Assembly: GCA_035645145.1 (NCBI GenBank)
Contig: DASQNC010000073.1
Span: 62,001-126,000, forward strand
Length of the DNA stretch: 64,000 bases
Source: Azospirillaceae bacterium
Lineage (GTDB): Bacteria > Pseudomonadota > Alphaproteobacteria > Azospirillales > Azospirillaceae
Reading direction: 5' to 3'
Made by a program: the position numbers and the translations under genes. The notes below the pieces were generated by a model, which saw nothing but the letters and a program-made list of their open reading frames with translations, was not told where the DNA came from and made no database searches. Below are positions 10,652-56,848 of this stretch, piece by piece. Each line of letters begins with the position of its first letter. Positions within the stretch are counted from its first letter, which is position 1.

Positions 10652-11524
10652 ATGGCCATTCTCCTCGGCCTCACGGCCGCACTCGCGTGGGGTGTCAGCG
10701 GCTTATTCGCGCGCGAGGTCAGCAGTGCGCTGGGCGCCTGGCGCGGATTGTTCACCACCCAGCTCTTCGGACTGCTCGTCCTGATGGTGCCGCTGATCGG
10801 CGCCATGGCCGGCCCGGGCCTGGATGCCGATCTCGCCGCCGCCCCCGCCCAGGCCTGGGTCGTGGCCGGGATCGCCGCCCTGGCGAACACGACCGCCACC
10901 CTGTCGCTGTACCAGGCCTACCGCAGCGGCTCGCTCGCACTCGCCGTCCCGATCTCGTCCAGCTACGGCGTGCTCACGACCGCCTTCGCCGTGCTGGCGG
11001 GAGAGGCGTTGGCGATGGTCGAGGCCGTCGGCATCGCATTGGCCGCGGGCGGTCTGGCACTGGCCGGCGTGCGCGGCCGGAATCCCGCGGCCGGGGACGC
11101 CCATCTCGCCAGCATCGGATGGGCCCTGCTGGCCTCGGCGCAGTACGGTTTCGTGTTCTGGTCCATGGGGTTCTTCGTGGCCCCCCATCTGGGCGGGCTG
11201 GTGCCGATCGTCATCACCCGCGCCCTCGCGGTTCTGGTGCTGGGCGGCATCGGATGGATGCGCGGCCTGGGCATGGGCCTGCCGCACGGCCCGCTGTGCC
11301 GCCGGGCCGCACTCGTGGGCCTTCTCGATGCCATCGCCTTCGTCAGCCTGACCCTGGGTCTCGGCCTGGGTACGGACACCGTGGGCGTGGTGACCGTTCT
11401 GGGCTCGCTCTACAGCGCCGTGGGCGCCGTGCTGGCCTTCCTCGTCCTGCGCGAACGGCTGGCGGTGCACCAGTGGAGCGGGGTCGCGGCCATCATCGCC
11501 GGCGTCGTTGCGCTAAACCTGTGA
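10652..11524 (+). CDS. EamA/DMT-family membrane transporter
   Basis: 290 residues with about ten hydrophobic segments in two similar halves, the plan of the drug/metabolite transporter (EamA) superfamily. The first half opens with LGLTAALAWGVSGLFARE and the second contains LGLGLGTDTVGVVTVLGSLY. Members export amino acids, metabolites or drugs; the substrate here is unknown. The ATG at 10652 starts directly at the first helix; a longer in-frame start at 10553 would add a proline-rich stretch unlike a membrane protein N-terminus. Confidence 0.85.
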   Translation: MAILLGLTAALAWGVSGLFAREVSSALGAWRGLFTTQLFGLLVLMVPLIGAMAGPGLDADLAAAPAQAWVVAGIAALANTTATLSLYQAYRSGSLALAVPISSSYGVLTTAFAVLAGEALAMVEAVGIALAAGGLALAGVRGRNPAAGDAHLASIGWALLASAQYGFVFWSMGFFVAPHLGGLVPIVITRALAVLVLGGIGWMRGLGMGLPHGPLCRRAALVGLLDAIAFVSLTLGLGLGTDTVGVVTVLGSLYSAVGAVLAFLVLRERLAVHQWSGVAAIIAGVVALNL

Positions 11525-19465: not shown

Positions 19466-20764
19466 TCAGCCTGCCGCCCGACGCAGCGTCGGCAGCGACA
19501 CGAAGAAGCCGATGCTGCGCGCGCCCATGAAGGCGGAGAACGCGATCCATACCCCGTGGTTGCCGACCCACCCCGGCAGGATCCAATAGCCGGCGGCATA
19601 GATCACCAGTGCCAGGACCAGGGTGTTCCGCAACAGCCCCGTCAGCGCCGCGCCGATCGCCGCCCCGTCCAGTTGGAACGAGGGTACCGCGACCAGGGGC
19701 AGGATCGCGGCATAGGGCAGATACTCCCGCGCGGTCATCCGCACCGACTCGATGGGGGTCAGGGCATCGATGAAGACGCCGCCGCACAGCATCATGACCG
19801 CCGCACAGAACACCGCCGCCCAGACGGACACGTTCGTCGTGACACGTATGGCGCGGACCACCCCGTCGGGATCCCGGGCACCGACGGCACTGCCCACCGT
19901 GGCCGAGGCGACCTGGCTGAACGCGCTCAGAATGTAGGACACCAGCAGGTACAGGTTCATCAGCAGGGCATTGGCCGCCAGCGTCGTGTCGCCGAAGGCG
20001 CCGCTTCCGGCGGTGAAGCCCAGGAAGGCCAAAAGCAGGCACTGGCTTCGGATGAACAGGTCGCGGCTGACCTCCATCACCCGCCGGAACGGCCGCCATG
20101 CGAAGGCCTGGCGCCAGGACCAGGGCGACCGGTCGGCCCGCCACATGCGCCATCCGGCCACCAGCGCGACGGCCAGGGCCACATGCTCGGCCAGGGCGGC
20201 AGCGAAGGCCACACCCTCCACGCCATAGCCAAGGCCGCGCACGATGACGATGCCCAATGCGACGTTGGCCGCGGAGCGCAACACCTCGATCGCCGTACTG
20301 AGCGCCATGCGCCGCTGCGCCAGGAACCACCCCATCAGCGCATAGTTCAGGAAGGCGGCCGGCACGCTCCAGATGCGGGCGAGGATGTAGAGGCGCGCGT
20401 TCTCCTCCACCTCCGGGCTGGACGACAGGGCATGGGCCGCCGGGCCGACCAGCAGGGCCGCGGCTAAGGCGATCACCCCGCCCAGGCCCAACGCCAGCAC
20501 GCACCCGCGCACCAGCACCAGCTTCACCTCCACTGGATCGCGCGCACCCCAGGCCTGTGCGGCGAGGCCGGCGGTGCTCATCCGCAGGAACGCGAACGCC
20601 CAATAGCAGTAATTGAACATCATGGTGCCGACGGCGACCGCGCCCAGGTAGTAGGTCTCGGGCAGGACGGCGACGACCCATGTGTCGAAGAGGGACAGAA
20701 TCGGGGTAAGGGCCCCTGCCAGCATCAGCGGCGTGGCCAGTCGCAGCGTGCGCGCCGTGGTCAT
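19466..20764 (-). CDS. MATE-family (DinF-like) multidrug/toxin efflux protein
   Basis: About 432 residues and twelve hydrophobic segments in two halves, the MATE fold. TPLMLAGALTPILSLFDTWVV at the N-terminus and SQVASATVGSAVGARD at the start of the second half are typical of the DinF-like subgroup. These are Na+ or H+ antiporters of the inner membrane; the substrate is unknown. The ATG at 20764 puts the first helix at the N-terminus; an in-frame ATG at 20833 would add 23 polar residues. It faces the DUF4214 array tail to tail, with no operon partners. Confidence 0.87.
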   Translation of the reverse strand: MTTARTLRLATPLMLAGALTPILSLFDTWVVAVLPETYYLGAVAVGTMMFNYCYWAFAFLRMSTAGLAAQAWGARDPVEVKLVLVRGCVLALGLGGVIALAAALLVGPAAHALSSSPEVEENARLYILARIWSVPAAFLNYALMGWFLAQRRMALSTAIEVLRSAANVALGIVIVRGLGYGVEGVAFAAALAEHVALAVALVAGWRMWRADRSPWSWRQAFAWRPFRRVMEVSRDLFIRSQCLLLAFLGFTAGSGAFGDTTLAANALLMNLYLLVSYILSAFSQVASATVGSAVGARDPDGVVRAIRVTTNVSVWAAVFCAAVMMLCGGVFIDALTPIESVRMTAREYLPYAAILPLVAVPSFQLDGAAIGAALTGLLRNTLVLALVIYAAGYWILPGWVGNHGVWIAFSAFMGARSIGFFVSLPTLRRAAG

Positions 20765-20961
20765 CTCGCCACCCGGCGGCGCCACCGGTCGGGCCGGACC
20801 GGAGCCGTGCCGGTCGGCGGTTTCCGCGTGCATGCTCAGGGGGGCTCCGGCAGGGCGGGACGGGCGACCCCGAAACTATCGGGGAGGCCCGGCCGTCCGA
20901 CCATGCGCGCGCTTGCGGAGCAGACCTGCGTAAAACGCAGGCGTGCCCGATGCGCCCCTGC

Positions 20962-22089
20962 TCAGATGTAGTGCGCCTGCAACGGGGCGAAGCCGTTGAA
21001 GGCGACCGCGCTGTAGGTGGTGGTGTAGGCGCCCGCCGCCCGGATCTGCAGCTTGTCGCCGACCTTCAGGTCCGCGGGAAGGCGGTAGTCGGCCTTCTCG
21101 TAGAGCACGTCGGCGCTGTCGCAGGTGGGGCCGGCAAGGATCACCGGCTCGGCGTTCCCCGTGCGGTCGGAGACGATGGGATACTGGATCGCCTCGTCCA
21201 TGGTTTCGGCGAGACCACCGAATTTGCCGATGTCGAGATAGACCCAACGCCGGTTGTCGTTGGCCGACTTCTTCGAAATCAGGACGACTTCGGTCTGGAT
21301 CACGCCGGCATCGCCCACCATGCCGCGGCCGGGCTCGACGATGGTGACCGGGATCTTGTTGCCGAAGTGCCGGGTCAGCGAATTGTGGATCGCCAAGCCG
21401 TACTGGCCGGGCGACGGCACGTCGGTGCGGTAGCGGCTGGGGAAGCCGCCGCCCAGGTTCACCATGCCCAGGACCACGCCTTCCTGCTCCAGTTCCCGGA
21501 ACAGCCGGGCGACGGCCGCGATGGGTGCGTCCCACTGGGCCGGATCCTTCTGCTGGGACCCGACATGGAACGACACGCCCCAGGGCTCGACCCCCATGCG
21601 GGCCGCGGCCCGCAACAGGTCCTTGGCCATGGGCAGGTCGCAGCCGAACTTGCGCGACAGCGGCCACTCGGCCCCTTCGCCCGTCGTCAGGATGCGGCAG
21701 AACACGCGGCTGCCGGGGGCGCTTTCGGCGATCTTGCGCAGCTCGGCGTCACTGTCGAAGGCGTACAGCCGCACGCCCAGCGCATAGGCCCGCGCAATGT
21801 CGGACTGCTTCTTGATGGTGTTGCCGTAGCTGATCCGCTCGGGCGAGGCACCGGCCGCCAGCGCCATTTCGATCTCGGGCACGCTGGCGCAGTCGAACGA
21901 GGCGCCCAGACCGGCGAGCAGGCGCAGGATCTCGGGCGCGGGATTCGCCTTGATCGCGTAGTAGATGAGCGCATCCGGCAAAGCGCTGTTCAGGGCGTGG
22001 AAGTTCTCTTCGACCACGTCCAGATCAACCACCAGGCACGGTGTCGCGGGGCGGACTTCGTCGAGAAAGCGATCGATCTTGGCAGTCAT
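20962..22089 (-). CDS. Ornithine decarboxylase (PLP fold-type III)
   Basis: 375 residues. Decarboxylates ornithine (possibly also lysine) to putrescine. The PLP lysine is K47 in YYAIKANP. The glycine-rich phosphate loop is NLGGGFPS, EPGRGMVGDAG binds the PLP phosphate, and the active-site cysteine is C323 in GPTCDS. It is the short eukaryote-like form common in alphaproteobacteria and ends in the usual GFAPLQAHYI-type tail. The ATG at 22089 gives the standard length. A long upstream leader with an internal ORF and alternative hairpins (22090-22360) suggests post-transcriptional control. Confidence 0.93.
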   Translation of the reverse strand: MTAKIDRFLDEVRPATPCLVVDLDVVEENFHALNSALPDALIYYAIKANPAPEILRLLAGLGASFDCASVPEIEMALAAGASPERISYGNTIKKQSDIARAYALGVRLYAFDSDAELRKIAESAPGSRVFCRILTTGEGAEWPLSRKFGCDLPMAKDLLRAAARMGVEPWGVSFHVGSQQKDPAQWDAPIAAVARLFRELEQEGVVLGMVNLGGGFPSRYRTDVPSPGQYGLAIHNSLTRHFGNKIPVTIVEPGRGMVGDAGVIQTEVVLISKKSANDNRRWVYLDIGKFGGLAETMDEAIQYPIVSDRTGNAEPVILAGPTCDSADVLYEKADYRLPADLKVGDKLQIRAAGAYTTTYSAVAFNGFAPLQAHYI

Positions 22090-22370
22090 TGGCGTCGGAG
22101 TTCCCTGGGCCCGGACGTGGTGTGCGGGCCTTTTGAAAAGCGGACGGCGAAGGCGGTGCCGCCAAGGCACCGCGACGATGCGGGGTCAGCTTTGACTGGG
22201 TTCGGGAAGCCCGGAGCGGAGGCCAAGACGAGCACGACCGGTCTTGGCGCAGCATTCGCCAAGACGACGACCGGAGCGAGTCCGGCCGGAATGGAGCCGG
22301 AGTGTGTGGCGACGGGCGGCGGGCACGCGCCCACCGGTGTGAACAACATTCAACATCGTAGCCTCCAAAC
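22090..22370 (-). promoter_or_regulatory. Structured leader of ornithine decarboxylase with alternative hairpins
   Basis: Read on the minus strand, three related segments occur in order: GTCTTGGCG (22265-22257), CGCCAAGAC (22249-22241) and GTCTTGGC (22229-22222). The middle one can pair with either neighbour (9 bp or 8 bp) but not both. A further perfect 8-bp hairpin (22173-22166 with 22160-22153) lies between this and the start codon. Alphaproteobacterial ornithine decarboxylase genes are known to carry the speF RNA motif; whether this leader matches it could not be tested. Confidence 0.5.
22186..22356 (-). CDS. Possible leader peptide ORF upstream of ornithine decarboxylase
   Basis: 56 codons starting at an ATG with a near-ideal ribosome site (GGAGG five bases upstream). 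The product is strongly arginine-rich (13 Arg) with His residues (RVPAARRHTLRLHSGRTRS). The ORF overlaps all three alternative-pairing segments, as an attenuation leader should, and its stop lies 96 bp before the decarboxylase ATG. In Enterobacteria a leader peptide senses ornithine upstream of speF. Extending that idea here is inference; no sequence identity with the enterobacterial peptide is claimed. Confidence 0.4.
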   Translation of the reverse strand: MLNVVHTGGRVPAARRHTLRLHSGRTRSGRRLGECCAKTGRARLGLRSGLPEPSQS

Positions 22371-22562
22371 GCCGCCTTGCTTAAGGGACGGACGGAAGTA
22401 CGCGTTGCGTCGTTACATAACCGCGAAGGGCCAGTGGCACGTGCGCTGCGACTGGGGACCGATATAAGTCGAACGGGGCGCAGCGAAAAGAGGAAAATTT
22501 GACCCGCCGGACCACGGCCACGAGCCGCCCGCGATCAACGCCCGGCCATCAATATCCGGCCG
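22371..22562. other. Intergenic stretch upstream of the decarboxylase leader
   Basis: No gene is recognisable. A TTATAT/TATATC sequence on the minus strand (near 22464-22469) could be a -10 element for the leader transcript, but no convincing -35 is present. Confidence 0.3.
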
Positions 22563-22940
22563 TCACCGCCACGAGCGTTCGGTCGGGCGACCGCCGGGCT
22601 TGGGCGCCTGTTCGTCCAGCCAATCCATGACACCCCGGCGCCCGCCATCGTCGGTGGCGCCGCCGGCGGCCCGGCGGCCCATGGTGCGCAACAGGTTCAG
22701 CACCCCGCCATCGGACCGGCGGAGCTGGTAGGCGAGCTGCGTCGCGTTCTCGCCCAGCGCATGGCGGGACTTCGACGGAAGCCGGCCGAACAGGGCGCGG
22801 GCCGCGTCCCAGCTTTCCTGGGACCGGTTCGCGGAGAACTCCCGAAGGGCCCGGGTGGCCGGTGCATCGTCGCCGATCGACGCGCTCATCGCGGCGATCA
22901 GGACCGAAACCGCCTGCATGTCAATTTCGTCGAAGCGCAT
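22563..22940 (-). CDS. Hypothetical protein, 125 residues
   Basis: Soluble and helix-rich, with no signal peptide or membrane segment. It starts MRFDEIDMQAVSVLIAAM and ends in a polar, proline-rich tail. Coding character is supported by the strongly GC-rich third positions and by the lack of a better frame on either strand. I recognise no family. It lies between the AruH-like aminotransferase and the ornithine decarboxylase leader on the same strand, 100 bp from the former. Confidence 0.6.
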   Translation of the reverse strand: MRFDEIDMQAVSVLIAAMSASIGDDAPATRALREFSANRSQESWDAARALFGRLPSKSRHALGENATQLAYQLRRSDGGVLNLLRTMGRRAAGGATDDGGRRGVMDWLDEQAPKPGGRPTERSWR

Positions 22941-56077: not shown

Positions 56078-56848
56078 CTAGATCCGCCAGGCGGTGTGGA
56101 TCGCGGCGATGCCGCCGGTCAGGTTGGTCCAGCGGGCCCGGTGCAGCCCGGCCGCCTCCATGCGCTTGGCGAGGGTAGGCTGGTCGGGGAACTGGCGGAT
56201 GCTTTCCGCGAGATACCGGTACGCCTCCGCATCGCCCGCCACCATGCGGCCGAGGCGCGGCAGCACGGTGAAGGAATAGGTGTCGTACAGCTCGCGCAGC
56301 AGCGGCAGGCGCACTTGGCTGAATTCCAGGCAGAAGAAGCGGCCGCCGGGCCTGAGGACGCGCCGGGCCTCTTCCAGGGCCGCATCGATACGGGTCACGT
56401 TGCGCAGACCGAAAGCGATGGTATAGGCGTCGACCGAACAGTCCTTCAGCGGAAGCCGTTCCGCATCGCCCACGATGACGTCCAGACCGCACAGGATGCC
56501 GCGGTCGATGGCCCGGTCGCGCCCCACCCGCAGCATCTGTTCGTTGATGTCCACCATGTGGACGTGCGTGCCGTTCCCCCCGGGACCGGTTCCACCGGCA
56601 CGCGCCAGGATGCGCAGGGCCACGTCGCCGGTGCCGCCCGCCACGTCGACGAACGTCTCGCCGGGGCGCGGGCGCACCTGGGCGACCAATTGGTCCTTCC
56701 ACAGGCGGTGGATGCCGCCCGACATCAGGTCGTTCATCAGGTCGTACTTCGGCGCGACCGCGTCGAAGACCTGGCGGACGAGGCCGGCCTTCTCGCGGGG
56801 GTCGACCTCGCGGTAGCCGAAGAAGCGGGATTCGGGGTTACGGTCCAT
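56078..56848 (-). CDS. ubiE: Ubiquinone/menaquinone C-methyltransferase UbiE
   Basis: 256 residues. A SAM-dependent class I methyltransferase with motif I VDVAGGTGDVAL, post-I MVDINEQML and the family signatures YDLMNDLMSGG and ITFGLRNV-type AFGLRNVTR. It methylates the ring in ubiquinone synthesis. The ATG at 56848 gives the normal length; the longer frame would begin within the divergent intergenic region. It is the first gene of ubiE-ubiB. Confidence 0.96.
   Translation of the reverse strand: MDRNPESRFFGYREVDPREKAGLVRQVFDAVAPKYDLMNDLMSGGIHRLWKDQLVAQVRPRPGETFVDVAGGTGDVALRILARAGGTGPGGNGTHVHMVDINEQMLRVGRDRAIDRGILCGLDVIVGDAERLPLKDCSVDAYTIAFGLRNVTRIDAALEEARRVLRPGGRFFCLEFSQVRLPLLRELYDTYSFTVLPRLGRMVAGDAEAYRYLAESIRQFPDQPTLAKRMEAAGLHRARWTNLTGGIAAIHTAWRI

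Follow-up and report, generated by a model that had tools for sequence, protein, structure and literature searches.

A conserved leader reading frame within a divergent ar45/speF-type RNA element upstream of an alphaproteobacterial ornithine decarboxylase: a candidate for control by ribosome position

Main finding

The ornithine decarboxylase (ODC) gene in the stretch of 64,000 nucleotides analysed here (hereafter the window, to which all coordinates refer) is preceded by a leader which, judging from the comparison with related loci, is a divergent member of the ar45/speF type that lies beyond the detection of the Rfam models, and which contains a short reading frame that is open in all close relatives. 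On balance we think it fairly probable that this is a polyamine leader in which an RNA structure gates the initiation of a leader peptide, and in which the position of the ribosome near the leader stop sets the expression of the decarboxylase. This reading starts from what can be read in the aligned DNA itself, namely the conservation of the RNA, the pairing that sequesters the Shine-Dalgarno sequence (SD), the frame of the ORF, the use of its AUG by the enzyme elsewhere and the association with polyamine genes. A broader version is more tentative, and we lean slightly against it: speF/ar45 would then form, over much of the Alphaproteobacteria, the front part of a polyamine sensor based on the ribosome, i.e. 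an RNA-gated leader peptide of a new class, often with an end of the (N)PLSS(I/M) type, controlling ODC, its paralog and homospermidine synthase. The features are located in Table 1.

Table 1. Position of the leader features and of the decarboxylase gene in the window
Feature	Position	Strand	Basis
TATATC, -10-like hexamer directly 5' of the element	22461..22466	-	sequence reading
Whole conserved leader RNA element (5' domain plus SD-sequestering stem-loop)	22342..22452	-	covariance model R2: 52.3 bits, E 1.1e-10
GCACGTGCCACTGGCC, conserved core of the 5' domain	22429..22444	-	pattern in 34/35 same-family genomes; common to ar45-like leaders
Conserved stem-loop holding SD and AUG of the leader ORF	22330..22420	-	model R1 match, alignment, fold
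Anti-SD segment CUUCC	22394..22398	-	pairs with SD in consensus fold and single-sequence fold
SD GGAGG of the leader ORF	22362..22366	-	read in sequence; invariant in 26 aligned relatives
Leader ORF, 56 codons plus stop	22186..22356	-	open in 30/30 closest loci; frame test 44/44
Segment 1 of the proposed switch, GTCTTGGCG	22257..22265	-	present in window; absent from congener L002
Segment 2 of the proposed switch, CGCCAAGAC	22241..22249	-	present in window; absent from congener L002
Segment 3 of the proposed switch, GTCTTGGC	22222..22229	-	present in window; absent from congener L002
8-bp hairpin GCGGTGCC-TTGGC-GGCACCGC, 12 nt after the leader stop	22153..22173	-	single-sequence fold
Ornithine (lysine/ornithine) decarboxylase, fold-type III PLP enzyme, 375 aa	20962..22089	-	Pfam PF02784 and PF00278

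Results and discussion

Ornithine decarboxylase is the first polyamine-making enzyme. The gene downstream of the window leader (start codon at 22089, minus strand) is of the COG0019 type, as in the ar45/speF lineage in its wider sense, and its best solved relatives are lysine/ornithine decarboxylases. On the same strand, 3' of it, lies a gene for a membrane protein of 455 aa (19466-20833, minus), which looks like a MATE exporter by eye and could be co-transcribed with ODC. At the other end of the locus, a TATA-like hexamer is found 8-45 nt 5' of the 5' element in 40/122 leaders, versus 1/122 in a control interval 200 nt farther upstream; this is suggestive of a role of TATATC as a -10 hexamer, in which case the transcript would begin at the 5' domain.

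When orthologous genes and their upstream DNA were compared between relatives, the same leader was found in all 30 closest loci. It consists of GCACGTGCC..TGGCC, a variable insertion and TTATGCAACGACG.AACGCGTA (with CCGTCCCTTAARCAAGGCGGCG in most), and ends with TTGGAGG.TACGATG followed by GTT-rich first codons; 42 columns are invariant in an alignment of 26 sequences of relatives. The most conserved part begins at about 22452, i.e. upstream of the interval 22090-22370 considered in a first-pass annotation of this DNA, where it was missed. In the RNAalifold consensus the pyrimidines that follow ACGCGTA pair with the SD, CGUA pairs with the UACG around the AUG, and CAACG with the UGUUG of the Val codons. 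In this SD/AUG stem 99% of cells are paired, versus 34-68% when the stem is slid, and its inner helix shows compensatory changes (the outer helices, with little variation, are less informative). Since the pairing spans the SD, the AUG and the Val codons, the start of the leader ORF is built into the RNA fold. Model R1 matches the window's own genome at G000:C73:84330-84420; a scan of 385 genomes of the class with R1 matched few families, but as the scoring took in only a few candidates from each genome, families without a match need not lack the element.

The leader ORF itself begins exactly where the first-pass annotation had put it, with GGAGG five bases before the ATG of a 56-codon frame on the minus strand (the spacer CTACG separates GGAGG, at 22366-22362, from ATG, at 22356-22354). 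Its product in the window is MLNVVHTGGRVPAARRHTLRLHSGRTRSGRRLGECCAKTGRARLGLRSGLPEPSQS (56 aa, followed by the stop codon), and the conservation in relatives by which it was to be judged is borne out, the frame being open in 30/30 closest loci, with lengths of 28-56 aa among these 30 relatives. A further argument comes from the C-terminal end of the peptide. A [Ser/Thr/Ile]-Ser-[Ile/Met/Thr] motif (sought as [Ser/Thr/Ile]-AGT-A(T/C), its frame being taken relative to the leader ATG) is in frame with this ATG in 44/44 occurrences; since the loci are related, the strength of the test is not given by the number 44 and comes from the number of different distances to the start codon, which are 12, from 75 to 150 nt, all in frame 0. 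A looser motif gives 33/34 in frame; the remaining one belongs to a locus whose ATG is fused to the enzyme. The peptide ends IGRKNPLSSM, FGRENPLSSQ and IGRKNPLSSI recur from one family to another, their codons showing many third-position changes. The window and its only congener found (L002) do not have the AGTAT form of the motif, which counts against our reading; these two have in common RSGLPEPxxS before the stop, as well as ML.VV at the peptide start, and their last ten codons, which remain in frame despite a length difference of 14 codons, show six synonymous and two replacement differences. From these data we take the leader ORF to be a real gene whose reading frame is selected, as would be the case in a leader-peptide attenuator, and they sustain the earlier description of the region as an ODC leader with a leader ORF, one that is conserved and evidently translated. 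The same description called the ORF arginine-rich, which is true of the window peptide (11 Arg); this richness is not kept in relatives, so that control by Arg codons, in the manner of an amino-acid attenuator, finds no support among them. The C-terminal sequences differ much between clades, a point against our reading in that this is unusual for a strict arrest peptide.

In 12 loci the decarboxylase gains an N-terminal extension, its frame being opened by this same leader ATG, and for this reason the AUG of the element is a working start site whatever comes after it. In one of them, L122, it is the only start codon 5' of the enzyme body. The annotated enzyme starts in these loci (L076, L080, L122, L135, L141, L145, L152, L164, L173, L176, L184 and L218) may be wrong. 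Another ATG, within ATGCAACGACG, was considered as a peptide start (MQRRN..) and rejected on account of single-base indels and varied stops among relatives.

The kinship with speF was the point on which the first-pass annotation looked to Rfam, and by that route it fails: the speF model (RF00518) gives no match at its gathering threshold over the window and none up to E 10 on 21900-22600, and no same-family genome reaches the gathering threshold. Likewise, the ar45 model (RF02347) gives no match at gathering over the window, none on 21900-22600, and none at E 1 among the loci of relatives. The kinship is upheld by R2, a covariance model made from a third group of leaders (other lineages plus copies of the element) without the ODC leaders of the window's family. 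Besides the window, R2 finds nine of ten other leaders of the window's type with E no higher than 4e-7 (the tenth, L028, at just 0.05) and most ar45/speF-like loci at E 1e-5 to 0.16, these values being rough with the calibration used. Rfam itself finds ar45 beside speF, directly 5' of it, in L074, L079 and L088, and R2 detects these loci with E 7e-5, 6e-4 and, weakly, 0.16, respectively; a further Rfam speF locus, L102, is not found by R2. Because R2 recovers the window together with most ar45/speF-like loci, we conclude that the window's group shares common descent with them. A weak R2 match elsewhere in the window (56543-56621, minus; 18.8 bits, E 0.012), in GC-rich DNA, is probably due to chance.

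No conserved ATG ORF was found in the Rfam-positive loci. Several leaders of the Rfam type (L074, L079, L098, L099, L101, L112, L125 and L137) have, about 68-71 nt 3' of the core, a TTG (with an SD) whose position hardly varies; a conserved peptide starting at this TTG was rejected because the ORF lengths range from 3 to 79 codons. The ODC leaders of L092, L123, L132 and L144 have CACGTGCC, with GGTAACGAGGTA(A/T)CG replacing GCAACGACG, and are perhaps a further variant of the element.

A wider set was made of ODC leaders from other alphaproteobacterial families and of 80 named loci from a scan of the genome collection (Azospirillum, Nitrospirillum, Skermanella, Magnetospirillum, Parvibaculum, Vineibacter, Desertibaculum and uncultured lineages). 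The other lineages follow the same plan with a different anti-SD: in their alignment (A3), the closing pairing of the 5' domain is GACGC..GCGTC, and the CGAGAGG of the SD has CUUUUUG as its partner. The 5' element occurs in at least two copies in 28/35 same-family genomes, that of the window included, at positions that agree with ODC and with a decarboxylase paralog of about 35% identity. In the genome of the window, the second copy (contig C24, about 10812-10930, minus; L283, L303) lies before this paralog, has a leader ORF of 11 aa (MVANYERATVR, then the stop) and is nearer to the consensus of the other lineages (109.8 bits with R2). The paralog leaders of relatives are likewise 11-12 aa long (for example MLALHGRALRR, MVASNRRALRR and MLSVHNGATVM, each ending at the stop); they are short and their endings differ from those of the ODC leaders, which counts against the peptide model. 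In Magnetospirillum molischianum a copy (L154, 1201-2604 minus and upstream) precedes homospermidine synthase, with a leader ORF of 17 aa that ends in KSM before the stop. The presence of copies at ODC, at its paralog and at homospermidine synthase points to control of polyamine genes as the regulon of the element. In Rhodospirillaceae bacterium SYSU D60014 one copy (L191) stands before a gamma-glutamyl-cyclotransferase-like gene (PF06094) rather than a decarboxylase gene, and a second copy in that genome precedes ODC (L195).

What follows the leader stop is more variable. The hairpin of the window has no U-run after it and its own sequence is not conserved; it occupies the position of covarying hairpins of another clade. 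In that clade two hairpins come directly after the leader stop, with compensatory changes in 5 pairs and 93% of cells paired, and 0/500 shuffles matched the covariation score; in some members a T-run lies 3' of the second hairpin. In a clade of five members, a stem across the stop codon has two pairs changed on both sides and 86/500 shuffles were as good, so that this stem is suggestive only. Over the 30 leaders taken together, structure around the stop codon exceeds that of shuffles by little (mean z about -0.7); on this weak score a family-wide stop-codon hairpin was rejected, and the small size of the excess counts against our reading.

We would assemble these elements in the following way. 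The RNA opens with a conserved structured domain, and the next stem-loop hides the SD and AUG from which a short ORF is read. The leader peptide evidently made from this ORF is conserved at its C-terminal end, close to the stop. The element would control how often and where ribosomes sit on the leader ORF, according to polyamine or ornithine status, and the position of the ribosome near the stop would decide whether the downstream hairpins form, hence the expression of the decarboxylase. A ribosome held at the leader stop would block the formation of the post-stop hairpins, and it is for this reason that we favour attenuation by ribosome position, with the RNA gating leader initiation. Sensing, stalling and the effect on the decarboxylase are the parts that we infer.

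Alternative explanations

The most serious alternative is a metabolite riboswitch, with the 5' domain as aptamer and the SD stem-loop as expression platform, the ORF being a mere relay (by translational coupling or Rho protection) in which the peptide sequence is irrelevant. Three points speak for this idea: the nucleotides of the 5' domain are very highly conserved, a terminator-like U-run follows this domain in most lineages, and no leader peptide is needed in the loci where the AUG of the element starts the decarboxylase itself. We nevertheless consider it rather unlikely, since a relay would not need the C-terminal motif to stay in frame through indels, as it does, and since the Agrobacterium speF RNA bound none of six compounds (L-ornithine, L-lysine, diaminopimelate, putrescine, cadaverine and spermidine) in published in-line probing (PMC1273637).

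We give much less credit to the attenuator proposed in the first-pass annotation, in which translation of the ORF would choose between two hairpins formed by GTCTTGGCG / CGCCAAGAC / GTCTTGGC. The three segments are indeed in place and the middle one can pair with either side, with almost equal energies in isolation (-14.1 kcal/mol for 1:2 and -13.7 for 2:3, i.e. within 0.4 kcal/mol), and the triple is rarer than expected by chance: when the ORF was shuffled 4000 times with its dinucleotides kept, a perfect 9-bp hairpin with a loop of 3-15 appeared 44 times, and one accompanied by a third copy 0 times. We rejected a dispersed repeat because the palindrome occurs at one site in the genome. However, the triple sits where the leader changes fastest, in the body of the ORF, which is variable; it has no counterpart in L002 or in other relatives, and no terminator or SD is visibly tied to segment 3. 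Its absence from the only congener found leads us to reject it as a conserved switch; with one congener compared, it could be a local device of the window species.

A separate small RNA lying upstream of ODC by happenstance would fit the listing of ar45 as an sRNA in Rfam and the detection of ar45/smrC45 transcripts apart from the speF leader (PMC7717549, PMC2573895), but is very improbable, the element being nearly always, where the sequence sufficed, 5' of one of three genes (ODC, its paralog or homospermidine synthase) and oriented like it, with a conserved stem that extends into the ORF codons. We hardly believe, either, in an incidental ORF whose nucleotides are conserved for RNA structure only: the first codons are indeed kept mainly because they pair with the 5' strand, but the 44/44 frame test concerns a region far outside the stem-loop, the C-terminal motif shows third-position changes, and the enzyme uses the AUG of the element in other lineages.

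Comparison with known systems

We retain attenuation by ribosome position, behind an RNA-gated start, as the reading to be compared with known systems. The speF element (RF00518) was described by Corbino et al. in 2005, who noted unassigned conserved blocks before the start codon (PMC1273637), and later papers still term its function unclear (PMC7717549; PMC11477304). The motif was revised in 2018 (Greenlee et al., RNA Biol 15:377, as cited in PMC7266159), and this revision may already include part of the 5' domain. In the open-access papers searched, we found no account of a leader ORF within the element. The window leader is like speF in its place 5' of the same COG0019 decarboxylase in Alphaproteobacteria, in a conservation that begins near the presumed transcription start, and in the succession of a stem with a large insertion and a long conserved stem-loop; it is unlike speF in that the Rfam model misses the window and its family, and in that the stem-loop of the window type holds the SD and AUG of a conserved ORF. 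It has in common with ar45/smrC45 (RF02347) the halves of the 5' domain, GCACGTGCC..TGG and GCAACGACG, whereas ar45 is annotated as an sRNA whose model does not detect the window, and the window's lineage has a pyrimidine anti-SD in place of the U-run after the 5' domain.

Since its description in 2005, speF has stood as an orphan among regulatory RNAs for which no ligand was found. A leader peptide kept within a divergent form of it, together with homospermidine synthase in the candidate regulon, would provide a testable reason for the failure of aptamer assays, in that the ribosome may belong to the sensor, and homospermidine, which is outside the compounds reported as tested, would be among the first candidate ligands.

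In enterobacteria, pausing of the ribosome at the stop codon of the SpeFL/Orf34 leader has been proposed to alter the downstream RNA fold, and the speF decarboxylase of these bacteria has another fold than the window enzyme. The window leader is similar to SpeFL/Orf34 of Salmonella (PMC6386406) in having a short ORF before an ornithine decarboxylase gene; it differs in its occurrence in other bacteria and in an ORF start that is buried in a conserved RNA element, and by eye we recognised no resemblance of its peptide to enterobacterial SpeFL. If our reading is true, leader-peptide control of polyamine synthesis would have arisen separately from the enterobacterial case.
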